Of a stretch of 54,843 bases of DNA, positions 2,236 to 54,419 are shown piece by piece. How positions within the stretch are numbered: the stretch's first letter is position 1; each line of letters starts with the position of its first letter. The position numbers and the translations under genes were made by a program. Source of the stretch: an uncultured Erysipelotrichaceae bacterium. GTDB lineage: Bacteria; Bacillota_I; Bacilli_A; Erysipelotrichales; Erysipelotrichaceae. The notes below the pieces were generated by a model. It was not told where the DNA came from and ran no database searches. It saw nothing but the letters and a program-made list of their open reading frames with translations. The DNA lies in assembly GCA_944326825.1 (NCBI GenBank), contig CALVFL010000036.1, forward strand, positions 1 through 54,843. The letters run 5' to 3'.

Positions 2236-2237
2236 AA

Positions 2238-2739
2238 ATGGATCTAGGAATAGATATTTCCCAGCAACTGTTTCCTAATCCTTTGACGATGCTTTACACT
2301 TTATGTGTAACGGCTGTTTTATTCTTTTTTATCTACAAGTTTTTGTTTAATCCGGCCCGTGAGATGATCCAAAAGCGTGAGGATTACGTCAATGGCAAGC
2401 TTAAAGATGCCGATAATATCAATTTAGAGGCTAAAGAAAACTTGTCCAAGGCTAAAGAAGAAGTTGAAAAAGCTAAAGTATTGTCTAAGGATATTATTGA
2501 AACAGCCAAAAAAGAAGCTAAAGATACTAAGGCTGTCATCGTTGATGATGCCAAGACTGAGGCTCAGGACATCTATCGCAAAGCTCATGATCGTATTAAA
2601 AAAGAGGAGATGGAACTCAAGAAAGACATCAATCGTCAGATCGTGGATGTTGCTCTTTCAGCCAGCGAGAAACTTCTGAAAGACAAAGACCTCTCTAAAC
2701 AGGACGAAGATTCTTTAAATGAGATCATCGATGAATTAA

Positions 2740-2750
<11 letters not shown>
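2238..2750 (+). CDS. atpF: F0F1 ATP synthase subunit b
   Basis: Peripheral stalk subunit of 170 residues: one N-terminal membrane helix (about residues 15-37) followed by a long charged coiled coil rich in Lys, Glu and Ala, and a short C-terminal segment that should contact delta. It starts two bases after the atpE stop with no clear Shine-Dalgarno sequence, so translation is probably coupled to atpE. It overlaps atpH by 11 bases. Confidence 0.93.
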
Positions 2751-7416
<4,666 letters not shown>

Positions 7417-8153: not shown

Positions 8154-8159
8154 AACTTT

Positions 8160-8168
8160 ATTCTAGCA
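8160..8168 (-). promoter_or_regulatory. extended -10 promoter, leaderless, of the sirtuin gene
   Basis: On the minus strand TGC-TAGAAT is followed by six bases and the start codon at 8153. Transcription should start at or next to the A of the ATG. Confidence 0.6.
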
Positions 8169-8171
8169 CTT

Positions 8172-8207
8172 AAAAAGCCCTCTTGAATAAATTTTGATCA
8201 AGAGGGC
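8172..8207 (-). terminator. intrinsic terminator of adhE
   Basis: A 10-bp perfect stem, GCCCTCTTGA with TCAAGAGGGC, has an 11-base loop. On the minus strand it is followed by five T, giving a strong terminator seven bases after the adhE stop. Confidence 0.88.
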
Positions 8208-8214
8208 CAAAATA

Positions 8215-9465
8215 CTATTTATCTAATTTATAATCACCGTAATAAGAGTTCTTTAAGATCTCTTTGATGTCTTCCAACATCGGTACTTTCGGATTGGCTG
8301 GCGAACATTGATCTTCATAGGCCAAGAAAGCCAGTTTATCCATGTCATTCAGCCATTTTTCTTCATCACAGCCCTGTTCTTTAAAGGACATGGCAATACC
8401 GACTTCTTTGCCCAGTTTATAGCAGGCATCGGCGTAAGCTTTAACGCCTTCTTCGACAGTATCGAATTTCAAACCGATCAAACGGGCTAACTCACAATAT
8501 CTCTCATCAGCACGATAGTAGTTGTATTTAGGCCAGATGCCAGGTTTAGAAGGCTTGACACCGTTATATCTGATGACCCAAGGCATTAAGATAGCGTTGG
8601 CTCTGCCGTGCGGTACATGGAACTCACCGCCGACTTTGTGGGCGATCGAGTGGTTCAGACCAAGGAAAGCATTGGCGAAAGCCATACCAGCTAAAGTAGA
8701 AGCGTTATGCATCTTTTCGCGGGCTTCTAGATCATTTTTGCCGTTCATAACAGCTCTTGGCAGGAATTCAAAGACCATCTTGACAGCTTGTAAAGCTAAA
8801 CCGTCAGTGAAATCACTGGCTAAAGTTGATACATAGGCTTCAGTGGCATGAGTCAAGACATCCATGCCGGTATCGGCAGTGATCGAAGCTGGCAGGGAAG
8901 TAGTAAGATTAGGATCGACGATCGCAACAGTCGGTGTTAATGAGTAGTCGGTCAAAGGATACTTCTTGTTTTCTTCTTTATCGGTAATGACGGCAAACGG
9001 TGTTACCTCACTGCCTGTACCTGAAGTAGTCGGGATACAGACCAGTTTAGACTTTTTGCCAAGTTCCGGATAGCGGAAAGCACGTTTTCTGATGTCCATG
9101 AACTTCTGTTTCAGATCGTTGAAGTTTACTTCCGGCTCTTCATAGAATAACCACATACCTTTAGCGGCATCCATGGCACTACCGCCGCCGATAGCGATGA
9201 TGGTATCAGGTCTGAAGGCCTGCATCAGGCTAAGACCTCTTTTGACCGTCTGGATCGATGGATCTGGTTCAACATCACAGAATAACTGCACCTGAACTTT
9301 ATTTCTTCTTTTTTCCAGCTGATTAGTTACAAGATTGACATAACCAAGATCGACCATGGAACGATCGGTAACGATAAAGACACGATCCATTTCACGCATC
9401 TGCTTTAAATATTCAATCGAATTGCGTTCAAAATAGATCTTTGATGGAACTTTAAACCATTGCAT
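8215..9465 (-). other. possible internally initiated alcohol dehydrogenase domain of AdhE
   Basis: Within adhE, AGAAGGAG lies seven bases before an in-frame ATG that opens the iron-alcohol dehydrogenase domain (MQWFKVPSKIYF). A separate 416-residue protein could be made from it. The Met is structurally conserved in AdhE proteins, so the Shine-Dalgarno match may be incidental to the codons for Arg-Arg-Arg-Asn-Asn. Confidence 0.3.
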
Positions 9466-38897: not shown

Positions 38898-38955
38898 GCA
38901 CACATTTCCATGTGTGCCAAATCTTGAACTAATATATAGATTCCACGCAGGAATC
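38898..38955 (-). promoter_or_regulatory. two hairpins in the rpsL leader
   Basis: GCACACAT/ATGTGTGC closes on a GGAA tetraloop (38898-38917), and GATTCC/GGAATC closes on five bases (38939-38955). Neither has a T-run. They could be the site of ribosomal-protein feedback or mRNA stabilisers. Confidence 0.55.
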
Positions 38956-38978
38956 CTATTATCGATCAAGCCTTTTTA

Positions 38979-39007
38979 ATATAATACTTTTAAAGTGTTT
39001 ATGTCAA
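38979..39007 (-). promoter_or_regulatory. promoter of the str operon
   Basis: Minus strand TTGACA (39002-39007), 17 bases, TTATAT (38979-38984); a shifted TATTAT (38981-38986) gives 15-base spacing. Positions 39008-39093 hold nothing I can identify. Confidence 0.65.
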
Positions 39008-39093
39008 TAAAAAAGTGAAGAAATTACGGTTTTTTAGCCGATATTTAACATTACGGCATACCAGGATATGTGGATGATACAGCAAACAGCAAT

Positions 39094-39119
39094 AAAAAAA
39101 CACATCTTCAAGATGTGTT
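39094..39119 (-). terminator. terminator after the tRNA-Arg gene
   Basis: AACACATCT and AGATGTGTT make a 9-bp stem with a three-base loop, followed on the minus strand by seven T. Confidence 0.85.
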
Positions 39120-39130
39120 CAATTAACCAA

Positions 39131-39207
39131 TGGCGTCCACGGAGGGATTCGAACCCCCGACCGTACGCTTAGAAGGCGTATGCTCTATCCAACTGAGCTA
39201 CGTAGAC
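39131..39207 (-). tRNA. tRNA-Arg (anticodon TCT)
   Basis: 77-base cloverleaf read on the minus strand with encoded CCA. Acceptor GTCTACG/CGTGGAC, D stem GCTC/GAGC, anticodon stem TACGC/GCGTA with loop CTTCTAA (anticodon at 39171-39173), and T arm GGGGGTTCGAATCCCTC. It reads AGA and AGG. It lies 30 bases after queH with its own terminator; an extended -10-like TGCTAATAT lies in the gap. Confidence 0.96.
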
Positions 39208-39237
39208 AGATTCTTGTGCCAAAATATATTAGCATTT

Positions 39238-39840
39238 TTAAATCTGTTTGGCAAGATGTTTTGAATAGATACATCCGCAATAGTTTTGATGGTAAAGATC
39301 AAGCTTGGCATTTAACTGCCGGTTTTTATCGATGCCGCCGTCTTTTTTAAGATTGGCATACAAGAATCTGGTATGCTTATAAACTTCACTCAGCTTAGTG
39401 CCGATATAGTTGATATAATCAGCATTTTTATGATTAGAGATCGTCATGACCGTCGTAATATAGTCATAAGCATTTTTATCGGCATAAGCGAAAGCTTCTT
39501 TCATCCTTAACATGTAACATAAAGCACAGCGGTCCAGACCTTCTTTCTGGTCTTTAAAAGGTGAGAGATATTTTTGATAATCGCTGTCGTAAGAGCCGAT
39601 GACTATCTCGATATCGCTATTTAACATCTTCCGGTATCTTTCTAATTCATTTAGACGCTTAGTGTATTCTTCATAAGGATAGATGTTGGAATTGGCATAG
39701 TAGATCGTGATCTTAAAATACCTGCTTAAAAGTTTTAAAGGATAAACGCTGCAAGGGCCGCAACACACATGCAGCAAAAGAGATGGTCTGCCTTTTAAAG
39801 AAGCTATCTCTTGTTTGAAGAGTTTCTGATAGTTATTCAT
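39238..39840 (-). CDS. queH: epoxyqueuosine reductase QueH
   Basis: Iron-sulfur enzyme for the last step of queuosine synthesis, replacing QueG; 200 residues. Cysteines are in HVCCGPCS (Cys26, 27 and 30), LDRCALCYMLR and YCGCIYS (Cys188 and 190), the QueH pattern. The ATG at 39840 is chosen because the protein then opens MNNYQKLF and overlaps queA by eight bases; an upstream in-frame start lies deeper within queA. Last gene of tgt-queA-queH. Confidence 0.93.
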   Translation of the reverse strand: MNNYQKLFKQEIASLKGRPSLLLHVCCGPCSVYPLKLLSRYFKITIYYANSNIYPYEEYTKRLNELERYRKMLNSDIEIVIGSYDSDYQKYLSPFKDQKEGLDRCALCYMLRMKEAFAYADKNAYDYITTVMTISNHKNADYINYIGTKLSEVYKHTRFLYANLKKDGGIDKNRQLNAKLDLYHQNYCGCIYSKHLAKQI

Positions 39841-40861
39841 TGTCGATAAACATACTGTCGCCAAACGAGAAGAAACGGTAACCTTCTTTGATGGCGATAT
39901 TATAGGCATTTAAGATCATCTCTTTAGAGGCGAAGGCACTGATCATCATGATTAGTGTTGATTTAGGCAGATGGAAATTGGTTATCTGACAATCGATCGC
40001 TTTGAATTCATAAGGCGGATAGATAAAGATATTGGTTTCTCCGCTGCATTCTTTGAACTTTCCGTATTTAGCGATCACGCTTTCTAAAGTCCTTGTAGAA
40101 GTGGTGCCGATAGCGATGATCCGCCGCTTTTCCTTTTTGGCTTTATTTAAGATATCAGCTGTTTCTTTGGACATCGAGTAATATTCATAATGCATGTGAT
40201 GCTTTTCAACTTCATTTTCTTTGACTGGCTTGAAAGTGCCAAGACCGACATGCAAAGTTATATCAGCGATGATGACGCCTTTTTTAGCGATCTTTTCTAA
40301 TAAGTCATTGGTAAAATGCAAGCCGGCTGTCGGGCAGGCGGCTGAACCGTTGATAGTGGCATAGACATTCTGATAGCGTTCTTTATCTTCAAGCATTTCA
40401 TGGATGTAAGGTGGAAGCGGAGTGTTGCCCAGTTTTTCCAGCACTTCCATAAAGATGCCCTCATAGTGCATCTTAAAGATCCTGATGCCTTCATCTTTGA
40501 CCTTGATGCATTCACATTTAAGCAGATCGCCGCAATTGATGATGGTCCCTTCTTTGATGGCTTTGGCATTGCCGCATAAACATTCGCAAATATCGTTTGC
40601 ATCATGTTTGAGAATCAAAAGTTCAACATGAGCCAAAGTCTTTTCCTTGATGCCGAAAAGCCGGGCCGGTATGACCCGGGAATTGTTCCTGACTAAAACA
40701 TCGCCCGGTTTTAAATAATCGATGATGTCATAAAAATGTTTATGTTCGATCTTTCCGGTATTTTTATGCAAGACCAAAAGTCTTGATTCATCCCTTTTCT
40801 CACTGGGATGTTGAGCTATCTGACTTTCTGGCAAATCAAAATCAAAATCATCTACACGCAT
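39833..40861 (-). CDS. queA: S-adenosylmethionine:tRNA ribosyltransferase-isomerase
   Basis: Transfers and rearranges ribose from SAM onto preQ1-modified tRNA to form epoxyqueuosine. 342 residues, normal length. Family segments: FDFDLPESQIAQHPSEKRD at the N-terminus, LKPGDVLVRNNSRVIPARLFG, and TAGLHFTNDLLEKI in the middle. The start codon directly follows the tgt stop, so translation is coupled. Confidence 0.96.
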   Translation of the reverse strand: MRVDDFDFDLPESQIAQHPSEKRDESRLLVLHKNTGKIEHKHFYDIIDYLKPGDVLVRNNSRVIPARLFGIKEKTLAHVELLILKHDANDICECLCGNAKAIKEGTIINCGDLLKCECIKVKDEGIRIFKMHYEGIFMEVLEKLGNTPLPPYIHEMLEDKERYQNVYATINGSAACPTAGLHFTNDLLEKIAKKGVIIADITLHVGLGTFKPVKENEVEKHHMHYEYYSMSKETADILNKAKKEKRRIIAIGTTSTRTLESVIAKYGKFKECSGETNIFIYPPYEFKAIDCQITNFHLPKSTLIMMISAFASKEMILNAYNIAIKEGYRFFSFGDSMFIDNE

Positions 40862-41992
<1,131 letters not shown>

Positions 41993-42022
41993 TTATCACC
42001 TCATATATAATAACATAACTTA

Positions 42023-42031
42023 TGCTATACT
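42023..42031 (+). promoter_or_regulatory. extended -10 promoter, leaderless, of the 145-residue membrane protein gene
   Basis: TGC-TATACT is followed by exactly six bases and the ATG at 42038. Confidence 0.6.
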
Positions 42032-42037
42032 AAAAAT

Positions 42038-42475
42038 ATGAACAGCAAAGTGATCAAAACTTATAATCTTCCCAAAGATAAAGAAGTAATATACCGCATT
42101 GAAGTCAAACCGACCTCGGCTTTAGTATTCATGTTTATCGGGGGAGTCATTTCGATCTATTATTCGACGACCTTGAGTGCGATCCTTATCGGGGCGGCTT
42201 TATTCGGCTTCTTTTTCTTGCCCTCCAAGGTCCTTATTGAATTTACGATGGACTATGTCATCCTTTATAACCGGGCATCTAAAAATGATTGTGTCATCGT
42301 TTATTATGATGAGATCGTTTCATGGCAATACATCAAAGGGCGTAAGGTGGATCGCTTAGAGATCATGCTTGATGACGGCAAAGTTGAATGTGTTGAATGT
42401 TTCAGCCGTTACATGGTATGCAAATACATGAATTATTTCGCAAAAGATAAACAAGTTAAAAAAAGAGGATTATGA
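42038..42475 (+). CDS. membrane protein with PH-like fold, unknown function
   Basis: 145 residues. A soluble N-terminal 25 residues leads into a hydrophobic hairpin (TSALVFMFIGGVISIYYSTT and SAILIGAALFGFFFLP). The C-terminal 85 residues form a strand-rich domain (DYVILYNRASKNDCVIVYYD, then EIVSWQYIKGRKVDRLEIML), the pattern of bacterial PH-like domains. No family name recognised. No Shine-Dalgarno sequence. It overlaps the exonuclease gene by four bases. Confidence 0.7.
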   Translation: MNSKVIKTYNLPKDKEVIYRIEVKPTSALVFMFIGGVISIYYSTTLSAILIGAALFGFFFLPSKVLIEFTMDYVILYNRASKNDCVIVYYDEIVSWQYIKGRKVDRLEIMLDDGKVECVECFSRYMVCKYMNYFAKDKQVKKRGL

Positions 42476-43026
42476 AGCTTGTCGCAATAGATTTTGAAAC
42501 GGCCAACCGTTATATGGACAGCGCCTGTTCGCTTGGTTTCAGCATCTTTAAAGAAGGGGAGATCTCAGATTCATCTTCCTTTTTGATCCTGCCCAAAAAA
42601 GAGCGGCGCTTTTTTGAGTTTACCTATATTCATCATCTGACTCTTGATGATGTCATGAACGAGTATGAATTTGATCATTATGCAGATTTTTTAAAAGAAC
42701 TTTTTGATGATGCGATCGTTTGTGCTCACAATGCCAATTTTGACATCACGGTCTTAAACAGTGTCTGTGATGCCTATGGTTTGGATCATTATAACTTTCC
42801 TTATTTTGATACGGTGAGATTATCCAGAAGGATGTGGCCTTATCTAAGCAATCATCGACTTAATACGATCAGCGAATATTTAAAGATCGATCTTGATCAC
42901 CACGAAGCCGGAAGTGACGCCTATGCCTGTTTGATGATCGTGCTCAGTTCAATGATGGAAGCAAATGTCTATGATGTAAAAGAGCTGTTAAATAAACTGC
43001 ACCTGAAAATCAAATATAACACTTGA
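42472..43026 (+). CDS. DEDDh-family 3'-5' exonuclease (DnaQ-like)
   Basis: 184-residue exonuclease of the DNA polymerase III epsilon type. The metal-binding residues are in LVAIDFETA (Asp and Glu of exo I), CAHNANFDITVL (exo II) and HHEAGSDAYA (exo III with the DEDDh His). No polymerase or BRCT domain is attached, so it is a stand-alone enzyme for proofreading, repair or RNA end processing. The four-base overlap with the membrane protein indicates coupled translation. Confidence 0.88.
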   Translation: MKLVAIDFETANRYMDSACSLGFSIFKEGEISDSSSFLILPKKERRFFEFTYIHHLTLDDVMNEYEFDHYADFLKELFDDAIVCAHNANFDITVLNSVCDAYGLDHYNFPYFDTVRLSRRMWPYLSNHRLNTISEYLKIDLDHHEAGSDAYACLMIVLSSMMEANVYDVKELLNKLHLKIKYNT

Positions 43027-43052
43027 AAACTATTTTCATTTATATGAAATTA

Positions 43053-43081
43053 TTTACAATAGTGATTATTTGTGCTAGTAT
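43053..43081 (+). promoter_or_regulatory. promoter of the pyrophosphatase-like gene
   Basis: TTTACA (43053-43058), 17 bases ending in TGC, TAGTAT (43076-43081). A CAGGAG Shine-Dalgarno sequence follows about 11 bases before the ATG. Confidence 0.6.
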
Positions 43082-43102
43082 TAGTCAGGAGATTTTTACA
43101 CA

Positions 43103-43492
43103 ATGAAGGAACTAGAGAATAATGCCTTGTTCTGGCAGAAATTAGACACGATATATCTATCCAGCGACTTCACTGTCGTTAATAAAAAAGGAAGCAGCGA
43201 TCCAAAGAGTTTTGGCGAGCAGTATCCTTGTGATTACGGTTATCTTAAGACTTTGAGCACGGATAATGAAACGGCCATTCCTTGTTTTAAGGGGGAGTCC
43301 TTTAAAGAAGTGGATGCGATAGTCGTGGTGGCGGATATCTTAAGCCGTTCGCTCAGTGTCGTGCCTTTGATCGGCTGCAGCGATGAAGAAGAGGAAGCGA
43401 TCCTCAATTTCTTAAATCAGAATGATCATCAAAAGACCGTCTTAGTCAAAAGGAGCAATGTCGTTCCTTCCTGGAGTTTGAGTGATGATTGA
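43103..43492 (+). CDS. small inorganic-pyrophosphatase-like protein
   Basis: 129 residues. NALFWQKLDTIYLSSDFTVV at the N-terminus, EQYPCDYGYLKTL and EVDAIVVVADILSRSLSVVPLIGCSDEEE resemble the short Clostridial proteins named inorganic pyrophosphatase, where the core reads YPLDYGYL. The usual acidic metal-binding run of true family I enzymes is not clearly complete, so activity is uncertain. Monocistronic, with its own promoter and terminator. Confidence 0.6.
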   Translation: MKELENNALFWQKLDTIYLSSDFTVVNKKGSSDPKSFGEQYPCDYGYLKTLSTDNETAIPCFKGESFKEVDAIVVVADILSRSLSVVPLIGCSDEEEEAILNFLNQNDHQKTVLVKRSNVVPSWSLSDD

Positions 43493-43494
43493 TC

Positions 43495-43520
43495 AAAAGA
43501 AGCCGTGCTGGCTTCTTTTT
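43495..43520. terminator. bidirectional terminator between pyrophosphatase-like gene and cutC
   Basis: AAAAGAAGCC and GGCTTCTTTT, 10-bp perfect stem with a five-base loop, T-rich on both strands. Confidence 0.88.
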
Positions 43521-43549
43521 ACATCCTTATTTATATAATTGTTTCTTTA

Positions 43550-44254
43550 TCACAATCTTTTTAAGATCTTCAAAAGATTGATGATCCGTTTTTGGGATGT
43601 CTGATAATATGTTTCTTTACTGATAGGGTCTTCGATGCTTTCTTTAAAAGAGCCATGGATCGAAGTTACTTTGGTCATTTTGACGACATCGAGGATGTTA
43701 TCTTCATTGATGCCGCCGCCAGGCTGAAATTCGATCTTGTTGCCGAAACTCTCGTTCAAATGGGCGATCCTTTTAATGGAGTCTAAGAAATCCTCGCTCG
43801 CTAATCCCATCAGCAAGATCCGATCGATACCGATATTTATCAGGGTATTGACGGCATCGGCTTTATCTTCAATGGAATCGATAGCACGATGAAAGATAAG
43901 TTCTTTATCTTTGACGATCGTTTTCATCTTCTGCATCGCTTCGACATTGACTCGGTAATCATCACCCAAGATGCCGGTAACGATACCGTCAGCGCCATTA
44001 TCGATAAGGCGCTTTGCTTCTTTATACATCAGTTCTAATTCACTTGCCGAATAGATAAAACTGCCGCATCTCGGTCTTACCATCGTGACGATGGGAATAT
44101 CGGTCAACTCTTTGGCTTTCTTAAGGGTTTCGATAGTGGGAGTCAAACCGCCAAGCTCTAAAGCGGAGTTTAATTCAATGCGGTCGATAGGGAGATCCTT
44201 CAAAAGTTCGATGTCATTGATGCCGCCGCAGCATATTTCTAATTTTAATGTCAT
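43550..44254 (-). CDS. cutC: CutC family protein
   Basis: 234-residue TIM-barrel protein. CCGGINDIELLKDLPIDRIEL at the N-terminus, VTMVRPRCGSFIYSASELELM, and GGGINEDNI near the C-terminus match the CutC family. CutC was named for copper homeostasis in E. coli, but its true role is disputed; the C-terminal HGS is conserved. The copper operon here lies 29 kb away. A TACAAT -10 lies six bases before the ATG and there is no Shine-Dalgarno sequence, so it should be leaderless. Confidence 0.92.
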   Translation of the reverse strand: MTLKLEICCGGINDIELLKDLPIDRIELNSALELGGLTPTIETLKKAKELTDIPIVTMVRPRCGSFIYSASELELMYKEAKRLIDNGADGIVTGILGDDYRVNVEAMQKMKTIVKDKELIFHRAIDSIEDKADAVNTLINIGIDRILLMGLASEDFLDSIKRIAHLNESFGNKIEFQPGGGINEDNILDVVKMTKVTSIHGSFKESIEDPISKETYYQTSQKRIINLLKILKRL

Positions 44255-44323: not shown

Positions 44324-45862
44324 ATGGCTGATAAGATTATCGTTTTGGATTTCGGCAGTCAATATAATCAGTTGATCGCCAGAAGGATCAGAGAGTTTGG
44401 AGTGTACAGCGAACTTTGTCATCATTCGATCACTTTGGATGAGATCTATGCCAAAGGTGATGTTAAGGGGATCATTTTTTCAGGCGGTCCCAACAGTGTT
44501 TATGATGAAAACAGCTTTAAGGCTGACAAGCGGATTTTTGAAAGCGGCTTACCGATCCTAGGGATCTGTTATGGCATGCAGCTTACCCATTTTGAACTTG
44601 GCGGTAAAGTTTCGCCTTCTTTAAAAAAAGAGTACGGGCAGGCTTATATCGATATAAAGGATTCTTTATTATTCAAGGGCTTGCCAGAGCATCAGTTAGT
44701 CTGGATGTCGCATGGCGATCAGGTCACAGAACTCGCCGAAGGTTTTGAAGGTATTGCCAGTTCTGCTACCTGTAGATTCGCTGCCAGTGAAAATAAAGAA
44801 AAGAAGATCTATACTGTTCAATTCCATCCGGAAGTAAGAAATTCGGTATATGGTTTAGAGATGTTGAAAAACTTTGTGTTTGAGATCTGCGGTTGTGAGG
44901 CCAACTGGTCGATGAAAGATTTTGCCCAAAGCAAGATTGAAGAGATCAGAGCTAAAGTCAAGGATCAAAAGGTGCTTCTGGCTTTAAGCGGCGGGGTGGA
45001 TTCTTCAGTAGCAGCGATGCTTTTGTCAAAGGCGATCGGCAAGAATCTCTATTGCATGTTTATTGATCATGGTCTGCTTAGGAAAAATGAAGCCGAAGAT
45101 GTTGTTAAGATGTGTAATGAACACATGGATATCAATTTAGTGAAGATCGATGCCAGCGAGCAGTTTTTGAGCAAGCTCAAAGGTGTGGAAGATCCCGAAG
45201 AGAAAAGAAAGATCATCGGTAATGAGTTTATCTATACTTTTGATAGAGAAGTAGAAAAGATCGTGACTGATGAAAAGATTAAATTTCTGGCGCAGGGTAC
45301 TTTATATACCGATGTGATCGAAAGCGGCACATCGACTGCTCAAACGATCAAATCGCATCACAATGTCGGCGGCCTTCCTGAAGATATGGAATTCGAACTG
45401 ATCGAACCGCTCAATACTTTATTTAAGGATGAAGTCAGAGCCTTGGGTATTGAACTTGGTCTTGATGAAGAGATCGTCTATCGTCAGCCGTTCCCTGGAC
45501 CAGGGCTTGGCATCAGAGTGGTGGGCGAGATCACTAAAGAAAGATTGGAGATAGTCAGAGAATCGGATTATATATTGAGGGAAGAGTTTAAAAAGGCCGG
45601 TTTAAATAAAACGATCTGGCAGTATTTTACAGCCTGCCTTAATAATAAATCTGTTGGGGTTATGGGTGATCAGAGGACTTATGACTATACTGTAGCCATA
45701 AGAGCGGTGACTTCGATTGATGGCATGACGGCAGATTGGGCCAGGGTGCCTTACGAAGTGCTAGAAGTAATAGCTTCAAGGATCGTCAATGAGGTCAAGG
45801 GCTGTAACAGAGTGGTGTATGATATTACATCCAAGCCACCAGGAACTATAGAGTTCGAATAA
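44324..45862 (+). CDS. guaA: GMP synthase (glutamine-hydrolysing)
   Basis: Converts XMP to GMP using glutamine and ATP; 512 residues. The N-terminal glutamine amidotransferase has the catalytic Cys in GICYGMQL and His in VQFHPEV. The ATP-pyrophosphatase loop is [11 protein letters not shown], followed by [14 protein letters not shown] and the C-terminal dimerisation domain, ending GTIEFE. The gene is complete. Its 3' end borders the mobile region; the end of guaA is a recurrent integration site for mobile elements in bacteria. Confidence 0.98.
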
Positions 45863-45913: not shown

Positions 45914-45919
45914 ATGCCT

Positions 45920-45941
45920 TTGACTAAAAATTGACTAAAAA
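45920..45941 (+). repeat. tandem 11-bp direct repeat at the island border
   Basis: TTGACTAAAAA is repeated twice without a gap, six bases after the guaA terminator. It could be recombinase arm-binding sites. The second copy also supplies a TTGACT -35. Confidence 0.6.
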
Positions 45942-45960
45942 TATTTTCAAGGTGTATTAT
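45931..45960 (+). promoter_or_regulatory. promoter of the recombinase trio
   Basis: TTGACT (45931-45936), 18 bases, TATTAT (45955-45960). The following leader of about 90 bases contains TTGGTGCAATTGCCAA, a near-palindrome at 46001-46016. Confidence 0.45.
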
Positions 45961-46055: not shown

Positions 46056-48977
46056 ATGAAAAGTTATAAAGAAATGGAGAATGAATTAGTTGACTATGTC
46101 AAAAATACATCAAGCGATTCAATTGATTTGGAGCGGTTTTTACGTTTTCAAAATTACGGATTGATCCTTGATTTTGATTCCTTATCTAATGATTTTTTTC
46201 GTTGGAATCCACGAATGATTACAAATACAATCTTTGCGATGATGGCCATAAAATCAAAATTTGAAATGGATCGTCCTCGCAAAAAAGAAGATGGATCGTT
46301 ATATAAATTTTTTAAAAAACAATACGGTCAACTCATTTCTGAAAACCGAATTTATGATTTTTCTAGAGAAGATTTTGAACATTTCTATCATTGTTTTTGT
46401 GGTTACACTTTAACTCCATTAAGAGAAGAAAACATAAAAAATAGTGTTCATGTCTTTTCAAAATTCTTAACGGAACATTTCAATCAAAAAGAAATTTATG
46501 ACATATTATCGAAATTGAATGAGGATCCTGAACAGTTTTTAAACCATACAATTTATGATATTTTTGATGAACAATTGGTTCAAGATTTTCAAAATCAACT
46601 TAGAAAAGCAATACGAGGTTCTGAATTTTCAACGGTTTTAATTCAAATTTTAAGTTCGATTTATATGAAAAATCAAAAAGAAAGTTTGATCGAAAATCAT
46701 ATTTTATATTATCTGTTCACTTCAAATTTAAATTGTTTTCATGATTCAGATTACGAAGGCTCTGTTATCTTAGATGCTTCTCCTCTCTTCATTCGAAAAT
46801 GGATGAGAGATCCAAAATTAAAAAATGTACACACTTTGTTTGTCTTTTCAGATGAAAACTTATCAATGTTTTGGCAGAAAAATTTTGAATCAAGATCAAA
46901 TTTAGAATCGATTTTTTATTCAGATTTGGATCAGTATGCTTCGAAATTTTCAGATTTTAACGATCAAATCTTAGTGTTTGGTAATCATATTTCTGATACA
47001 GGAATTAAGTTTTATTTAACAGATTATCTTCTAAGAACAATGCCATTTGATTCATTTTATTATTATGATTACGATGAAATCATTTTGAATAATACAGAGA
47101 TATCACTTATTTTTGCTCAAGAAAATCTTTCTGAGATTCATCTGTTTCCATCTGGAATCAATGATGTGAAACGAAGGCAAAGATCAAGCTTTTTAAAATT
47201 TAAATCAGGTAATCATCATTTAAAATTTAATGTAACTCATTATACTTTGAATAAAGAAGGACAGTATCAGGCTTTGTCACCACGCATATATTCTCAAAAT
47301 TTACCACAAGAACAATTCTTTAAGGGAAGAGAAAACATTCGAAAAATATTTAATGATGGTTTTAAAGAGTCCACACGAAAAACGAACCAACAAAGAAAAA
47401 CGGCAGAATTATTTCATTTTACAGAAGAGATTATTTTCTATTTTACGAAAAGTTATGATTCAAAAAATAATAGCTATCGTGTAGGAGCTTATGCTGTAGA
47501 ACCGAGATTTTTAAAAGATGGGACTCGAGATTCTTCGTCCAAAGTAAAACTTCCTTTAACGCTTAAAAACTGTCGGCAATCTTCTAAAGAAGAAATTGAA
47601 AATTGGTTGAATTTTGAATATCCGTATTCGATTCGAAAAGGAGAAAATCCAATTGATATACGAAAAGAGATTTGTTCAGTATATAAGCAAGCTTACAAAA
47701 ACAAACCAATCACGTTAAAAACCTTTGTTTATTTTTATTTGGAATCTATCAAAAATAGATATGGGTATAAACAAATGGAAATAGTATTGGATTTGTGCGA
47801 AGTTATATTCGGAAGAACTCTGATAGATGATTTTTCATCATTCTTTGTCAATGAAATATTAGATAATTTGTACGAATCAGTTGACGATGAGAGCAAGAAA
47901 TATCAGGCTAAAGCTTTGTTGTCAGATTTGATTGATCAAGCTATTAAGATGAAACATGCCACAGTAAATCAAATCAAAGATGAAGTGATTGAAGAGAGTA
48001 ATTTAAAAGATAAAGCATATTATCAGTCTAGAAAACACTTAACTATCAAATATTTTTCACAGACAGAAAATATAAAATTGTATAAGCACATAAAAAAGAA
48101 TCTTGAAAAAGATAGTCGTTATTTAGGGGCATATATAAAACTTGTCACTGGATTAGAAAGTAATATAGTATGCGCTCTTCAATGGAAAGATTTTGTTCCA
48201 CTGCACGATTACAATGAAGATCATGATAAATATCAATTGATTATCCGTAAACAGTTATACAACGATGGAAGTGGTTTCGCAGAGTTTTCTAGAAAGGAAT
48301 TGTATCGTAAAGTCCCTTGTAGCGAAGTATTAACAGAAGTTTTATTGATTCAAAGGCAAGAAGTCATGAATAAGTGTGAAAGACAAAACGATAAAGATAT
48401 TGGTGAATTTTCAATTGTTGAAGGGAATCTTCTTGTAGGTGAGAATACAAAGGTAATATCTCCAACGAGCTTGAGTGCATTTTGTGGCAAATTGGTGAAG
48501 AAATTACGAAAAGGATATTCTCTGATTTCAGAAATTCCAGATTCTAAAAAAGGAACAATAGAAACAGACTTTCTTTCGTATGGCGGGGATATCTTCAAAA
48601 GCAATTTCCAACATTACGGACTGTATAAAGCAAATTTTAATCAAGGTGAATTAGATTATTTGTTGGGCAGGAAAACAGATACACCGTTTGCACGAAATTA
48701 TTGTGATTTTGGAAATGATGCAGCGCAATTGGTGCTTGGGGTAAAACAGAATCGCTTTATGACAATTTTCATGAAAGATGAAAAACTTAGAACTAAAATG
48801 ACCCGATTGGTTCCTGATTCTAAAGGTGCAATACGATATGAATCTGAAAAACCTAGAACAAGTGCTGTCAGTATTGTGGCAACTTTATCATTGTCAGAAC
48901 AAGATGAAGTAGAAATATCGATTGAAAATAAATATGGATTCGATTTATCAATTAGTAGAATAGAGAGGCAAAAATGA
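46056..48977 (+). CDS. large protein with degenerate C-terminal tyrosine-recombinase domain
   Basis: 973 residues. About 1-600 is unassigned, Phe/Tyr/Asp-rich, with a possible alpha/beta segment (HTLFVFSDENLSMFW to FNDQILVFGNHISD, about 260-320). The last ~330 residues resemble a tyrosine recombinase: TGLESNIVCALQW (from residue 698) matches box I but has Glu701 where catalytic Arg belongs; NFQHYGLYKA (850-859) lacks the box II Arg; a possible Tyr882 lies in ARNYCDF. It is thus probably structural or regulatory. GTGAGGTG precedes the ATG; four-base overlap with the next gene. Confidence 0.7.
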   Translation: MKSYKEMENELVDYVKNTSSDSIDLERFLRFQNYGLILDFDSLSNDFFRWNPRMITNTIFAMMAIKSKFEMDRPRKKEDGSLYKFFKKQYGQLISENRIYDFSREDFEHFYHCFCGYTLTPLREENIKNSVHVFSKFLTEHFNQKEIYDILSKLNEDPEQFLNHTIYDIFDEQLVQDFQNQLRKAIRGSEFSTVLIQILSSIYMKNQKESLIENHILYYLFTSNLNCFHDSDYEGSVILDASPLFIRKWMRDPKLKNVHTLFVFSDENLSMFWQKNFESRSNLESIFYSDLDQYASKFSDFNDQILVFGNHISDTGIKFYLTDYLLRTMPFDSFYYYDYDEIILNNTEISLIFAQENLSEIHLFPSGINDVKRRQRSSFLKFKSGNHHLKFNVTHYTLNKEGQYQALSPRIYSQNLPQEQFFKGRENIRKIFNDGFKESTRKTNQQRKTAELFHFTEEIIFYFTKSYDSKNNSYRVGAYAVEPRFLKDGTRDSSSKVKLPLTLKNCRQSSKEEIENWLNFEYPYSIRKGENPIDIRKEICSVYKQAYKNKPITLKTFVYFYLESIKNRYGYKQMEIVLDLCEVIFGRTLIDDFSSFFVNEILDNLYESVDDESKKYQAKALLSDLIDQAIKMKHATVNQIKDEVIEESNLKDKAYYQSRKHLTIKYFSQTENIKLYKHIKKNLEKDSRYLGAYIKLVTGLESNIVCALQWKDFVPLHDYNEDHDKYQLIIRKQLYNDGSGFAEFSRKELYRKVPCSEVLTEVLLIQRQEVMNKCERQNDKDIGEFSIVEGNLLVGENTKVISPTSLSAFCGKLVKKLRKGYSLISEIPDSKKGTIETDFLSYGGDIFKSNFQHYGLYKANFNQGELDYLLGRKTDTPFARNYCDFGNDAAQLVLGVKQNRFMTIFMKDEKLRTKMTRLVPDSKGAIRYESEKPRTSAVSIVATLSLSEQDEVEISIENKYGFDLSISRIERQK

Positions 48978-50374
48978 GAGTATTTGATCCAAAGTATCCA
49001 AAGTATACTCCATATCAAAAATTGAATTTTGTGGGGGCTGTTCAACGTTATTTTGAATTTATTAATCAAGATAATAAAGAATCGACCAATGATACATATA
49101 TGGATTTTTATAACAACAACATTTTCCCGTATGTAAATTATGGTAAGCCTGTAGAATCTTTTGATATTGATTATGTGGATGATTTGATTAGAAAAATTCA
49201 ACAAAAGAATGAATATAGAGACAGTACGATCTATTCAACGATTCGCCATCTCATGTACGATCCGTGTAAATGTTTTTTCAATGAGTTTTATCCTGAGAAT
49301 AATCCATTTGAGATTAATCCGACTGATTTTAGAAGGGGTGGAGATGGTAGTGAAAGTCAGGAATCTGCCATATTGTCTATTGTCAAATCATTAACGGTAG
49401 AAGAAGAAAAGAAGGCCTTTCAGATTCTTTTAGCTGATCCTAGAACAGATAAAGGTGAGTACCTGGGCTTAGCAGTTATGTTTTTTACTGCTTGTCGAAA
49501 TAATGAAGCTTGTGGCTTGAATTATGGAGATATTTTAGAAATGATCAATTACCCAAATTGTTTCTATATCCAAATCACTAAGTCGGTAGAGTATCGTACC
49601 AACACATTGAAATCTGGTGGAAAAACACAAAATGCGTTTAGAAGATTGCCTCTAGTTTCTATTTTTAAAGAATATCTCGATGAGCGTATTGATTTTTTAT
49701 CATCAAATGTTCGATTTCCCTTAGAAGAGAATGGCAATGTTTATAAAACAGTATATGATCTTCCAATTGTATGCCGTGGGAATAAGTATGGAACTCGTTG
49801 TAATTCAGATGATTTAACGATCGCAGGACGAAGATTTTTAAGAGATGAAGTAGGTATTAAAAAATCCCGAATTGCGGGAATCATGGTTAGTATTTCAGAA
49901 GATAAAGATACGGAATATGATCTAGGAGAAAAAGATGTCACTACCTATTTGCTTCGAAGAAACATGGCGACACATCTTTATACTCTTGGTTTTACAGTTC
50001 TAGAAAGTCAGTATTTCATGGGGCATAAAATGGAGGGTACGGCTTTAAAAAGATCTGACTTTGGAGATGAGACATTCTTGTATGAGATGTGGGAAAAGAT
50101 TCAAAAACATCCATTAAATCGGATGGAAAATAATGTTTTGAATTGTAAAGATACACTAATAATCAAAAATGAATCAAAGACAAAGATAGCAATTAAACCG
50201 AGCGGTGATGAAATTTATTTAATGAAAATAGAATCTAAAGAGATAAAGGATAGTGTTCTAATAGAATTAACAAATGAATTTAGTGAGCTTGACATATTTG
50301 GGGAGTCGCGGCAGCATGATAATGAAGAAGTAAATATAACTTCACTAATCAACCACGGCTATAGAGACATATAA
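48974..50374 (+). CDS. tyrosine-recombinase-like protein
   Basis: 466 residues. A SAM-like N-terminal domain (about 1-115) precedes a catalytic-type domain: box I MFFTACRNNEACGLNYGD (Arg175), a beta-hairpin with LKSGGKTQNAFRRLPL, box II YLLRRNMATHLYTLG (Arg328, with Tyr325 in place of the usual His), MGHKMEG (His351) and a candidate nucleophile Tyr370. The His-to-Tyr distance (19) is longer than the usual nine or so. About 90 further residues follow, of unknown role. It overlaps the 973-residue gene by four bases, so the two proteins are made together. Confidence 0.75.
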   Translation: MRVFDPKYPKYTPYQKLNFVGAVQRYFEFINQDNKESTNDTYMDFYNNNIFPYVNYGKPVESFDIDYVDDLIRKIQQKNEYRDSTIYSTIRHLMYDPCKCFFNEFYPENNPFEINPTDFRRGGDGSESQESAILSIVKSLTVEEEKKAFQILLADPRTDKGEYLGLAVMFFTACRNNEACGLNYGDILEMINYPNCFYIQITKSVEYRTNTLKSGGKTQNAFRRLPLVSIFKEYLDERIDFLSSNVRFPLEENGNVYKTVYDLPIVCRGNKYGTRCNSDDLTIAGRRFLRDEVGIKKSRIAGIMVSISEDKDTEYDLGEKDVTTYLLRRNMATHLYTLGFTVLESQYFMGHKMEGTALKRSDFGDETFLYEMWEKIQKHPLNRMENNVLNCKDTLIIKNESKTKIAIKPSGDEIYLMKIESKEIKDSVLIELTNEFSELDIFGESRQHDNEEVNITSLINHGYRDI

Positions 50375-50380
50375 ACATTT

Positions 50381-50425
50381 TCTCGAGAATCCGTGAGAAT
50401 TCTCAAAATTCTCAGGAATTTCTCA
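50381..50425. repeat. cluster of short palindromes after the recombinase pair
   Basis: TCTCGAGA (50381-50388) and TGAGAATTCTCA (50394-50405) are perfect palindromes, followed by AATTCTCA and AATTTCTCA copies. The pattern suggests repeated half-sites for a dimeric DNA-binding protein, either recombination sites or an operator for the next gene (TATAAT at 50480-50485). Confidence 0.5.
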
Positions 50426-50551
50426 TTTTTGGACAGACAAATGTAATTTTTATTCCCACAGTTTTCATTATTGTTCATATATAATAAAAATACAAACAGA
50501 ATAACATCTAGAGTATTTTATTATATATGTTAAAGGAAGGGTGATAGATAT

Positions 50552-51520
50552 ATGGAGAAAAAGGATAAACGAATCTATTTCGATGTTTTTGACTTGAATG
50601 GAAACAAAATTGAAAATCAAGTACGACCAGACGGTGGTAGTTACTTAAAATATCACAACAATAGGAACTATGTTTTAAAGTGTTATAAATGTGGTGGGGA
50701 AGGACAAATTATTGAACGAAGAAAGAAGCATAGGTACGATAAATATAATTACTATTTTCGTGCCGATCATACCGAGGAATGTGGTATAGCTAAGGAGGGT
50801 AAGCAAAAAAATGTGATCATAACTGAAAATTTAGTTTTGAATTTTTCTGTTAGCCCATCAAAAAATGAAGAAGGTCCTGGATCAGAAGAGCCAGGATTAC
50901 AAAAAAAGAGCAAAACGAACAGGGAATTAAAAGGAACGAAGCACATTAAAGGCGATTCACAGCAAAAAACCATTACTAAAGACTTATATAATATGATTGT
51001 GGATTGTTATGATACTGAAAAAATTTGGGTAAAAGATAATGGAGCAAAAGTAAAAAAGGACGTTAAGGATATTGTCATTTCAGCATCAAAAGATGAGAGT
51101 TATAGAGGGAAGAGATTCAATGGCAATTACATTATTGTTGATTTTCTTGATTCTGATTATATAGAGGATGAATATAAAGAAGACAAAACTTGTATAATTG
51201 CATTTCCCCAAGGCAAACACCATCAAGAAGAAGGTAGGGTTCTTGTTAAATTACATTTTTTGTATGAAAAAGACTATGATGAGTTTATACAAAAAAAGCT
51301 TGCTTTAAAAGAAACAAGACGAATAAACAGTGAAAATTATAAAAAATGGAAAAAGGGTTTAGAGAAAAAGTATAATAAGATTCAAAAAATCATTCCAGTA
51401 TTTGCTGTCGATTTAAAATATAATTATGAATTAAGTCAACAAAAATATGTATCGAAAGCATATGATGCTAATGTAACTTCAGGAAATATTATTTGGATAA
51501 GTGAAGAAGAAGCAATTTAG
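50552..51520 (+). CDS. zinc-ribbon protein of unknown function
   Basis: 322 residues. The N-terminal 75 residues contain CYKCGGEGQIIERR and, after a basic stretch, HTEECGIA, which could bind one zinc through Cys-x2-Cys and His-x3-Cys. Residues 95-150 are a charged, low-complexity linker. The C-terminal half is alpha/beta with a very basic segment (KKWKKGLEKKYNKIQK) and ends SGNIIWISEEEAI. I do not recognise a family. AAGGAAGGGTGAT precedes the start. Same orientation and codon style as the recombinase pair. Confidence 0.6.
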   Translation: MEKKDKRIYFDVFDLNGNKIENQVRPDGGSYLKYHNNRNYVLKCYKCGGEGQIIERRKKHRYDKYNYYFRADHTEECGIAKEGKQKNVIITENLVLNFSVSPSKNEEGPGSEEPGLQKKSKTNRELKGTKHIKGDSQQKTITKDLYNMIVDCYDTEKIWVKDNGAKVKKDVKDIVISASKDESYRGKRFNGNYIIVDFLDSDYIEDEYKEDKTCIIAFPQGKHHQEEGRVLVKLHFLYEKDYDEFIQKKLALKETRRINSENYKKWKKGLEKKYNKIQKIIPVFAVDLKYNYELSQQKYVSKAYDANVTSGNIIWISEEEAI

Positions 51521-51545: not shown

Positions 51546-51592
51546 AAAAAGGAGATAGACACATAAATTATATTGTGTTTAATCTCCTTTTT
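51546..51592. terminator. bidirectional terminator before the RHH gene
   Basis: AAAAAGGAGAT and ATCTCCTTTTT form an outer stem, with ACACA/TGTGT inside. It ends the zinc-ribbon gene from the left and the RHH gene (whose stop lies within it) from the right. Confidence 0.85.
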
Positions 51593-51776
51593 TTAATCCT
51601 TGTTTTAATAATTCTTCATCAATTAAACGATTGACCATTCCATTGATGGATTCATTATTTAGTTTGGCGCATTTTTGGATCATTTCCTTTTTCCCGATAG
51701 GGACTCGAATGCGTATATTTTCTGTTTTTTCTATTTCATATTTTCTATTTGCTTTTTTCTGTGCTTCTGTAGTCAT
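51579..51776 (-). CDS. ribbon-helix-helix DNA-binding protein (Arc/CopG-like)
   Basis: 65 residues: a basic N-terminus (TTEAQKKANRKYEIEKTENI), a strand IRIRVPIGKK, then two helices (KEMIQKCAKLNNESINGMVNRLIDEELL). This is the layout of Arc-type repressors found in integrative elements beside xis-int. The ATG at 51776 has AAAGGA upstream; an in-frame extension to 51827 has none. It is divergent from the promoter at 51833, so it probably represses xis-int. Confidence 0.75.
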   Translation of the reverse strand: MTTEAQKKANRKYEIEKTENIRIRVPIGKKEMIQKCAKLNNESINGMVNRLIDEELLKQGLKKGD

Positions 51777-51832
51777 AATGGTTTCCTTTGTTAAAATTTT
51801 AAAGAAAAAATGAACAAAAATCAACAAAAAAC

Positions 51833-51867: not shown

Positions 51868-52077
51868 GGAAATAGAAAAACACGGCAGTTTCAAAGACTG
51901 GTCCTCTTTGAAACCTGCATAGGTAATGGTGGTACCTACACAACGATAGATCGCACCGCGTATTAGAATTATAGCGATTCTAGGCTATAAATACAAGTGA
52001 GGTCATGAAGATTACAATTGATATTGATTGCATTGTAACACCGTGTAGATACTGTATCTATTCGGTGTTTTTGTTTT
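51868..52077 (+). ncRNA. structured leader or small RNA upstream of xis
   Basis: About 210 bases from the predicted start to an intrinsic terminator. It contains a strong hairpin (GTTTCAAAG/CTTTGAAAC, extended by GCA/TGC, 51885-51918), a small AGGTA/TACCT dyad, a TAGAAT/ATTCTA dyad, and TTACAAT/ATTGTAA (52012-52038) that touches the terminator and could compete with it. It may be an attenuator of xis-int or a free RNA. No known RNA family was recognised. Confidence 0.5.
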
Positions 52078-52091
52078 CCGAAAAGAAATAA
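52005..52091 (+). CDS. possible leader peptide spanning the xis terminator
   Basis: 28-codon ORF beginning MKITIDIDCIV and containing TPCRYC. It runs through the whole terminator hairpin and stops 19 bases before xis. A GTGAGG lies only two bases before the ATG, which is too close for good initiation. If it is translated, ribosomes would open the terminator. Confidence 0.25.
   Translation: MKITIDIDCIVTPCRYCIYSVFLFSEKK
52038..52077 (+). terminator. terminator between the leader promoter and xis
   Basis: ACACCG/CGGTGT outer stem and TAGATAC/GTATCTA inner stem, closing on a single unpaired base (so a few pairs must open at the tip), followed by TTTTTGTTTT. It lies upstream of xis rather than after a gene, so read-through should be regulated. 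Confidence 0.75.
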
Positions 52092-52109: not shown

Positions 52110-52325
52110 ATGCAAGACAACAAATTATTTCTTAGTGCTAGTGATGTTTCTAAATGTATGTCGATTTCGATTCCTATGGCTTATAAGATCATTCGTAAAT
52201 TGAATGATGAGCTACAAGAAAAAGGGTATCTGGTCATTTGTGGAAAAATCAATCGAAAGTTCTTCGAAAGTAAAATTTACGGTGGGTTAGATAATAGAGA
52301 GCAGGTGTCTTATGCCAGCTTATAA
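52110..52325 (+). CDS. xis: excisionase-like small DNA-binding protein
   Basis: 71 residues. LFLSASDVSKCMSISIPMAYKIIRKLNDELQ is a winged-helix/helix-turn-helix segment of the excisionase type, and KGYLVICGKINRKFFESKIYG forms the wing and recognition end. AAAGGAGG precedes the ATG. It overlaps int by 14 bases, the usual xis-int pairing. It should bias the integrase toward excision and may also regulate its own leader. Confidence 0.8.
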   Translation: MQDNKLFLSASDVSKCMSISIPMAYKIIRKLNDELQEKGYLVICGKINRKFFESKIYGGLDNREQVSYASL

Positions 52326-53403
52326 AGATCCTAAAAATAATACTTGGTATGTAAAGTATTCTCGAAAAGAATTAGATGGAAAATTTCATGGAAAAACAAA
52401 ACGTGGTTTTGCAACAAAAAGAGATGCACTTAAATGGGAGGCTGAAGAAAAAAGAAAAATTCATGGTGTGTTGGATATGTCATTTAGCTCTTTCTGTGAT
52501 TTGTATCTGGAGAGTCAGAAGCCAAGATTAAAGCCAAGTACATTGTCTATGAAGAGAAACATAATTTATAAACATATAGTTCCTTACTTTTCTTCTAAGA
52601 GAGTTAACTCTATTACGACTCAGGATGTGATGGAATGGCAGACACATATTCTTGAAACGGTAGATCCAAAAACTGGATCTACCTATAAGAAATCGTTTCT
52701 AAAAACAATCCATAATCAGTTGAATGCGATTTTAAACTTTGCGGTTCGCTATTATGGACTGTCTAGTAATCCAGCGCATGTTGTTGGAAATATGGGAAAT
52801 GATCGCGAAATTGAAATGAATTTTTGGACAAAGGAACAGTATTTAAAGTTTCGTGAATGCATGATGGATGAACCGATGTTTTATTATGCATTTGAATGTT
52901 TGTACTGGCTTGGAATTCGCGAAGGGGAAATGCTTGCACTAACTCCTGGAGACTTTGATTTTGAAAAGGGAGAAGTACGAATCAATAAAACCTTTTATAT
53001 CTTAAAAGGAAAACACTATATTACTTCTCCAAAAACAATCAAGAGTGTTCGAAAAATTAAGATGCCGAAATTTCTTTGTGATGAGCTGCAAGACTATCTT
53101 CAGCTTGTATTTTTACCTTCTGATGATATCGAAGATCGAATGTTTCCAGTTACAAAAAGTTCGGTAAATCGGGCTTTGAAAAGAGGAACAAAAAAGGCTG
53201 GATTACCAGAAATAAGAGTTCATGATTTAAGACATTCTCATGTATCTTTGTTGATTCATTTGGGCTATTCAGCAGTTGCGATTGCTGATCGATTAGGTCA
53301 TGAATCCATTCACGTGACTTATCGTTATGCTCATTTGTTTCCTAGCGTTCAGGATGATATGGCCAAGAAACTAAATGAAAGCTTGGGTGATGATTATGTC
53401 TGA
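52312..53403 (+). CDS. int: tyrosine-type site-specific integrase
   Basis: 363 residues with intact catalytic residues: Arg203 (LGIREGEMLAL), His304 and Arg307 (HDLRHSH), His330 (LGHESIH) and Tyr339 (YRYAHLF), the last two nine apart as usual. The N-terminal 60 residues form an arm-DNA-binding domain (DPKNNTWYVKYSRKELDGK), followed by a SAM-like core-binding domain. It should integrate and excise the element. The start overlaps xis by 14 bases and translation is probably coupled. Confidence 0.95.
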   Translation: MPAYKDPKNNTWYVKYSRKELDGKFHGKTKRGFATKRDALKWEAEEKRKIHGVLDMSFSSFCDLYLESQKPRLKPSTLSMKRNIIYKHIVPYFSSKRVNSITTQDVMEWQTHILETVDPKTGSTYKKSFLKTIHNQLNAILNFAVRYYGLSSNPAHVVGNMGNDREIEMNFWTKEQYLKFRECMMDEPMFYYAFECLYWLGIREGEMLALTPGDFDFEKGEVRINKTFYILKGKHYITSPKTIKSVRKIKMPKFLCDELQDYLQLVFLPSDDIEDRMFPVTKSSVNRALKRGTKKAGLPEIRVHDLRHSHVSLLIHLGYSAVAIADRLGHESIHVTYRYAHLFPSVQDDMAKKLNESLGDDYV

Positions 53404-53713
53404 GAGAAGATTGGATAAGAAGGGGAGATGGCGAAACAAAACTATAGCGTTTCGAGTCTCATCGGAAGAAAATGAGCAGATCAATCGGTATGTTGAGGTT
53501 AGCGGTCTGACCAAACAAGAGTTTTTGATTTCAAACATGTTGAACAAGAAGATCAATGTTGTGGGAAATCCTAGAGTGCATAAAGCATTAAAAAAGTACA
53601 TGCAGACAATTTATAAAGAATTAAAGCGTATAAATGATTGTAGTGAAATCGATGATGAATTTAAAGAATTCATGAAGTATGTGTTTCAAATTTATGAAAG
53701 GATGGAAAAATAG
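53396..53713 (+). CDS. mobilisation protein-like (MobC/RHH type)
   Basis: About 105 residues. RWRNKTIAFRVSSEENEQINRYVEVSGLTKQEFLISNML is the ribbon-helix-helix-like opening of relaxosome accessory proteins in Firmicute integrative elements; the rest is helical and basic. GGGTGAT lies about seven bases before the ATG at 53396 (an ATG at 53390 is also in frame). It overlaps the int 3' end by eight bases. The relaxase expected downstream is not in the window. Confidence 0.65.
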   Translation: MSERRLDKKGRWRNKTIAFRVSSEENEQINRYVEVSGLTKQEFLISNMLNKKINVVGNPRVHKALKKYMQTIYKELKRINDCSEIDDEFKEFMKYVFQIYERMEK

Positions 53714-53714
53714 A

Positions 53715-54419
53715 ATGAAAGTTATGTTAAATGTTCCTTATGAAGAAAAGAATGAGGCTAAAGTATTGGGAGCTAAATTTGATTGGGATGCTAAAGTCTG
53801 GTATTGCGAAGATATAGCAGATATTAAGCTGTTTAATAAATGGCTTAATAAGACTAATGTCATTTGTGAAAATCTCTATATCTTTAAAATGAATCGAGAT
53901 TGTTTTCGTTGCGGGAAAAGTTCTGAAGTTGTTTTGCTAGCGACGGACAGAAGTTATGCTTTGGAAGATAATTATAAACTTAATATAAATATGCAGATTC
54001 TAACTTACTTGGAATGGATGCCTAGAAAGCTTGGTGATTATATGGAGAAGTTGCGATATTATCCGTCATATTCGAAAACAGTGAACGCTTCTTACTACAT
54101 GAATCATTGCCCAAATTGTAAATGTACGCATGGAGATCATTTCTTACATGAAGTGCCAAATGAAGCTATGTATAAGCATTTGTTTTATAAGAAATCTGCA
54201 CCTTGCAGATATTCTAAGATTGAAAACTCTTTTTGCTTACCAATAAAAGCAAGACTTCCTCATTATGATGAAGTAAATAGCAGTATGGAATTGTTAATGC
54301 TCCATCTAACACATGAGGATATGGAAAATAGAGCTAGCTTAAATGTAACGCAAAAAGAGATCAATAAGCTATTACCAACAAGTATTCGGGAAGAAGATAT
54401 TGTTATTTCTGGTATATAA
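53715..54419 (+). CDS. DUF5710-domain protein with zinc-binding cysteines
   Basis: 234 residues. The N-terminal MLNVPYEEKNEAKVLGAKF and following DWDAKVWYC match the DUF5710 motif common in mobile elements and DNA-processing proteins. Later CFRCGK and HCPNCKCTHGDH supply a second, zinc-ribbon-like site. The ATG at 53715 is preferred over an in-frame start at 53679, since the domain starts there and AGGATGG lies upstream. It follows the MobC-like gene by one base. Function unknown. Confidence 0.7.
   Translation: MKVMLNVPYEEKNEAKVLGAKFDWDAKVWYCEDIADIKLFNKWLNKTNVICENLYIFKMNRDCFRCGKSSEVVLLATDRSYALEDNYKLNINMQILTYLEWMPRKLGDYMEKLRYYPSYSKTVNASYYMNHCPNCKCTHGDHFLHEVPNEAMYKHLFYKKSAPCRYSKIENSFCLPIKARLPHYDEVNSSMELLMLHLTHEDMENRASLNVTQKEINKLLPTSIREEDIVISGI

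Follow-up and report, generated by a model that had tools for sequence, protein, structure and literature searches.

Complementary active-site losses in two recombinase-fold proteins of a three-gene module carried by integrative elements

In Flp and, according to mutational and structural work, in the SSV1 integrase, the catalytic tyrosine is delivered into the active-site pocket of another protomer (PMC8371274). Recombinase-like relaxases (MpsA/MpsB of SGI1, TcpM of pCW3, and MobK of pIGRK) are found on mobilisable elements that lack a classical relaxase; MpsA requires an adjacent partner, and the RK(H/Y)RH pentad permits a tyrosine at the His-II position (PMC6414798, PMC8152469). Several recombinase-fold proteins, one of them degenerate (GinC or Tfp), are encoded together in GInts (ginABCD) and SEs (intA-tfp-intB-srap) (PMC5385486, PMC10214605), and the 3′ end of guaA is a known site of integrative mobilisable elements (IMEs; PMC5704250). 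Here we describe a three-gene module (the trio; genes A, B, and C) close to the guaA 3′ end in a 54,843-nucleotide stretch of DNA from an uncultured Erysipelotrichaceae bacterium (contig CALVFL010000036.1 of assembly GCA_944326825.1; hereafter the window). A and B are homologues of tyrosine recombinases, and neither has a complete active site.

Flp and the SSV1 integrase are homomeric, with all catalytic residues on each chain, whereas the pocket and the tyrosine of A and B are found on separate gene products. B resembles the recombinase-like relaxases in its tyrosine at the His-II place, a substitution also quoted for that group (PMC8152469), but MpsA, TcpM, and MobK are reported as small chains without a core-binding domain, whereas A and B, both incomplete, are far larger and have each kept this domain. 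In GInts and SEs, two complete recombinases are encoded and the recombinase set itself bounds the element; the trio has no complete recombinase and is accompanied by a separate integrase (Int). As in the trio, two or three recombinases stand side by side in Tn554 (TnpA, TnpB, TnpC) and RIT elements, but those recombinases are complete and have no second integrase or element with arm sites around them. The gamma-mobile-trio is another three-gene set with a recombinase, GmtY, whose model (NF040693) misses B even at E 1. The trio was set apart from Tn554, RIT elements, GInts, and SEs by their published descriptions (PMC10214605, PMC5385486). It thus fails a tested defining feature of complete tyrosine recombinases, of these four systems, and of the gamma-mobile-trio; placement of A and B in a described transposon family, an outcome named beforehand as counting against the initial annotation of this locus, came out negative. 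Its mode of action may nevertheless be that of a recombinase-type relaxase or of Flp.

Recombinase-fold proteins A and B and their catalytic residues

The three open reading frames (ORFs) placed by the initial annotation were all borne out:

46056–48977, plus strand: A, 973 aa; helical N-terminus, fast-evolving alpha/beta domain (about 231–410), core-binding domain (552–641), catalytic-type domain to about 905, and short C-terminal beta region
48974–50374, plus strand: B, 466 aa; core-binding domain (about 17–114), catalytic domain (about 140–385), and C-terminal beta domain
50552–51520, plus strand: C, 322 aa; N-terminal CxxC...C zinc ribbon, acidic linker, and C-terminal domain without a family match

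A lies beside B in the window, where the two genes overlap by 4 bp (ATGA), and at six further loci, the seven junctions varying between an overlap of 8 bp and a gap of 1 bp. These loci belong to Faecalitalea cylindroides (L015), whose B is 96% identical to that of the window, Lactimicrobium massiliense (L016; genome G633), an Erysipelotrichaceae metagenome-assembled genome (L017; G195), two more family members (L035, G699; and L036, G696), and, in another class, Aristaeella lactis (L002/L107). In L. massiliense, A is interrupted by a transposase gene (7654–9147, ISL3-like by eye), so that this copy is broken while B and C remain open. C is present in the window, L. massiliense, L017, L035, and L036, and in the last three it leads a C-A-B operon; beside A-B it is absent from F. 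cylindroides and was not found in A. lactis. On the question of homologues that occur singly, A and B are found apart only as decayed remnants (7 loci), whereas C is missing beside A-B in two of seven cases. The decayed copies include C with a B fragment in L007/L039 and B remnants in L037 and L038. The zinc ribbon of the C homologues is CoiA_N-like, with a score below the cut-off.

Between the window and F. cylindroides, dN/dS was 0.14 for A and 0.06 for B, low values that place both proteins under purifying selection; residues 231–410 of A evolve fastest (77% identity, dN/dS 0.26). The C-terminal beta regions have been lost from A and B together in L035 and L036, and this joint loss fits a contact between the two proteins. 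No relative was recovered by scans of viral contigs (with B, two B alignments, and A) or by tblastn of B against phages; among plasmids, tblastn with B led to Aristaeella only and with A to nothing.

By fold, judged from homology of the core-binding and catalytic domains, A and B are members of the tyrosine recombinase superfamily. B matched Phage_integrase of Pfam (E 8e-5) and a PHROG integrase (E 6e-13), the C-terminal half of A aligned with B at an hhalign probability of 96.7% (E 3e-10), and after a phylum-wide search the same half of A matched complete recombinases of other genomes by hmmsearch (E about 1e-9 to 1e-14). Because of the Pfam and PHROG matches of B and these profile alignments of A, the recombinase assignment is not a chance one. 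A itself had no Pfam or NCBIfam match, none of all NCBIfam models claimed A, B, or C, a PDB sequence search gave no match, and outside the family, profile searches of the class and phylum returned nothing beyond weak, generic recombinase matches. In low-confidence structural models, residues 552–789 of A matched the lambda and Tn1549 integrases (Z 10–11.5), the core-binding domain of A (552–641) superimposed at 2.3 Å over 88 residues, and residues 17–114 of B matched recombinase core-binding domains with Z up to 7.6 (Tn1549 Int); these Z values are weak by themselves and agree with the profile alignments.

Catalytic columns were assigned by aligning the seven A and B homologues with ten complete recombinases, which located the following residues in the window:

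48156–48158, plus strand: Glu701 of A at the Arg-I position (Glu in five homologues, Asp in L. massiliense, Ala in A. lactis)
48699–48701, plus strand: Tyr882 of A at the nucleophile position (invariant, 7/7)
49496–49498, plus strand: Arg175 of B (Arg-I; 7/7)
49622–49624, plus strand: Lys217 of B (beta-hairpin Lys; 7/7)
49946–49957, plus strand: Tyr325 (His-II position) to Arg328 (Arg-II) of B (both 7/7)
50024–50026, plus strand: His351 of B (His-III; 7/7)
50054–50056, plus strand: Ser361 of B in the nucleophile column (Tyr in 0/7)

The alignment upheld the reading that Glu701 replaces the box I arginine of A, and it showed a lysine at the box II position of A; it likewise put Arg175, Arg328, and His351 of B at the correct catalytic positions. 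Tyr370, once considered a possible nucleophile of B, had to be abandoned, being off the nucleophile column and not conserved; the column itself holds Ser, Val, Lys, or Phe. Among the seven homologues of A, the remaining pocket positions have changed to Ser or Thr (Lys), to Asp, Asn, or Pro (His-II), to Lys, Arg, or Val (Arg-II), and to Arg, Asn, or Ile (His-III). The RKHRH pocket and the aligned tyrosine are thus combined within a single chain in neither A nor B at any of the seven loci, and the losses are complementary: A has kept the tyrosine, and B the pocket. What stands of the original interpretation is a conserved recombinase-fold pair, plus a third gene, outside described families; its pairing of an active with an inactive recombinase is not supported, the residues showing two complementary, incomplete halves.

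The host integrative element and its trio-less sisters

Although the initial annotation delimited the three ORFs correctly, it missed the larger unit in which they lie, which starts at the guaA 3′ end (attL, about 45848), takes in an integrase and NikA, and continues up to the end of the contig at 54843:

44324–45862, plus strand: guaA (GMP synthase), host gene with the insertion site at its 3′ end; same site in L. massiliense, L035, L036, F. cylindroides, and trio-less loci
45848–45861, plus strand: inferred attL core ATAGAGTTCGAATA, homologous to the 13–14 bp direct repeats that bound the elements of G633, G699, and G195 (rplQ)
45919–45942, plus strand: tandem arm-type repeats TTTGACTAAAAATTGACTAAAAAT just inside attL, with counterparts near attL elsewhere and also near the far end in G195 and G633
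51880–52080, plus strand: structured leader RNA with a 3′ terminator-like hairpin, upstream of xis-int (z −3.6; compensatory changes in 13/27 pairs, 5 elements)
52110–52325, plus strand: excisionase-like protein, 71 aa, by direct reading; an equivalent ORF precedes int in sister elements
52312–53403, plus strand: Int, arm-binding tyrosine integrase, 363 aa (Pfam PF00589, PF14659, PF14657; tree)
53375–53713, plus strand: NikA/MobC-like protein (Pfam PF21983)
53679–54419, plus strand: DUF5710 protein, encoded by the first cargo gene beyond NikA, close to the end of the contig

On sequence grounds, the host of the trio is a guaA-site integrative element with Int, a Xis-like gene, and short direct repeats, the last seen in relatives, as the window contig stops before attR; it resembles the guaA-site IMEs with an arm-binding Int, and the Int at 52312–53403 is probably the element's own integrase. 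Copies of the guaA 3′ end lie 36.2 kb apart in G633 and 14.5 kb apart in G699, and copies of the rplQ 3′ end lie 15.7 kb apart in G195. Homology between F. cylindroides and the window starts at a duplicate guaA tail. This second tail (about 45 bp, within 5970–6290) precedes A-B and follows an LPXTG-type levanase-like gene, an arrangement expected of tandem elements. Two related integrases arranged in tandem near guaA in L079 (1638–7938), 51% and 43% identical to that of the window, suggest element arrays at this site.

The trio occupies a slot between the att-side gene and int, with A first in the window, F. cylindroides (a short contig in which int itself was not seen), and L. massiliense, and B first in L017, L035, and L036. 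The leader RNA, which lies below palindromic operators (TATGGTACCATA and variants), is conserved upstream of xis-int in the window, L017, L035, L036, and L107; it had no Rfam match and is possibly an attenuator of xis-int. Between C and this leader, at about 51590–51780, is a short minus-strand ORF, ribbon-helix-helix-like by eye, and the stretch is about 68% conserved in L017. The A. lactis record (NZ_CP069422.1, 1–44127) has Int, excisionase-like, and NikA-like genes in a compatible layout; att was looked for in it and not found. The ends of this 'plasmid' record overlap (203–5476 vs. 38920–44127, 94.8%). Because its first 202 bases differ, the record was not accepted as a settled circular form; it may hold an integrative element of this kind as either a circle or a tandem copy.

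Relatives of the integrase-NikA unit without the trio lie beside guaA in about ten genomes, and what occupies their slot is mostly just the excisionase and an XRE-type gene. As these trio-less relatives occupy the guaA site, the trio is dispensable for integration, and its location at guaA is the doing of the ordinary integrase. The trio is thereby ruled out as the determinant of guaA specificity, as it also is by the trio element at rplQ; the idea of a stand-alone cassette that recognises guaA itself is not supported. In the integrase tree, the integrases of the five trio-bearing elements, of Aristaeella (reached by way of B only), and of G669 (where the trio could not be seen on a contig of 3.6 kb) formed one clade with support of 99/98, and none of 500 label shuffles was as clustered as the observed labels. 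By this clade and the shuffles, the trio is not random cargo and appears to be stably inherited with one lineage of guaA/rplQ-targeting elements.

A proposed shared active site and competing explanations

The reading that we favor, at a probability of roughly 0.4, is that A and B share one active site as an obligate two-component enzyme for processing DNA of the element itself, a relaxase-like activity being our first guess. A and B would be paralogous recombinase-fold subunits of one obligate heteromer, in which Arg175, Lys217, Arg328, and His351 of B, with Tyr325 at the His-II place, would make up the phosphate-activating pocket, and Tyr882 of A would be the nucleophile handed to it in trans. 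Substrate recognition would be the task of the N-terminal region of A and of C, the zinc-ribbon protein, and the module would most likely nick the element's own DNA or exchange its strands. Given the complementary losses and the trans cleavage by Flp and the SSV1 integrase, the donation of a tyrosine by A to B is the simplest reading; to our knowledge, trans cleavage has been described for homomeric recombinases only. The guess at a recombinase-type relaxase comes from the small trio elements, which lack the RepA and relaxase of their sisters. In the trio-less sisters, NikA is followed by a RepA-type AAA_25 ATPase and in some also by a Mob_Pre relaxase, whereas G699 and G195, the two small trio elements that are delimited in full, yielded neither a relaxase nor RepA. 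No match to PF03432 or PF01076, two relaxase models, was obtained in the assemblies of the window (G000), G699, G696, and G195. In its narrower form, a split tyrosine recombinase with a nucleophile-only and a pocket-only subunit that replaces the classical relaxase or acts as a second strand-exchange system, the proposal is possible but on balance doubtful.

Several observations weigh against a shared active site or a relaxase role. In B of L017 and A. lactis a tyrosine stands two residues past the nucleophile column (Phe363 in the window), and it could be a displaced nucleophile. The AlphaFold models are poor (pLDDT 50 and 44), too poor for the spatial relation of A to B or for naming the domain at 231–410 of A. 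L. massiliense is an exception to the missing relaxases, with a Mob_Pre relaxase in its BREX-bearing cargo, and because the genomes are drafts these absences are only weakly suggestive. Moreover, the module sits at the attL side of int, outside the mobilisation slot behind NikA, and MobK, TcpM, and MpsA, unlike A and B, are reported to have a complete active site in one chain. Support for the residue pattern comes from seven loci, two of them 96% identical in B.

The trio might instead be defence cargo placed in the slot between attL and int, its three proteins binding or cutting foreign DNA by means of the recombinase fold. The element can do without it, as the trio-less sisters demonstrate, residues 231–410 of A evolve fastest, as a recognition domain might, and trio elements carry other defence-like genes (BREX in L. 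massiliense, an Hhe/PDC-S37-like helicase and kinases in Aristaeella, a kinase in G699). We nevertheless regard this as unlikely, since the module tracks one integrase clade over two classes with no hopping between islands, no copy was found outside such elements or in phage and viral collections, and PADLOC returned no family for A, B, or C, only one marginal match of B to DndD (E 0.0035) outside the recombinase core. It also seems improbable that A and B are dead recombinases whose non-catalytic DNA-binding complex takes over from the XRE repressor, as regulator or architectural factor, at attL or at the promoter of int: selection for DNA binding alone does not predict that the pocket of B and the tyrosine of A stay invariant while the remaining catalytic positions drift, and L035 keeps an XRE-like gene beside the trio. 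In favor of such a complex, an XRE gene fills the same slot in sister elements, and Tfp of SEs and GinC of GInts have lost catalytic residues yet remain in their recombination sets (PMC10214605, PMC5385486).

Two overlapping recombinase-fold genes and a third at an element end recall the multi-recombinase transposition systems of the Tn554, RIT, GInt, and SE type (PMC10214605, PMC5385486), one of which could be nested at attL. We consider this very improbable: the element ends and arm sites suit the ordinary integrase, trio-less sisters share the site, no trio protein has a complete catalytic set, the repeats inside the module are short and imperfect, and gene order and orientation to att differ among loci.

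If A and B do share one active site, as we infer from their complementary residues, each cut would require assembly of the heteromer, with the two halves of the site fixed on different proteins. Such a pair would provide a clean system for testing trans cleavage and the evolution of relaxases from recombinases, and the trio would serve as a marker for integrative elements that relaxase-based tools miss.

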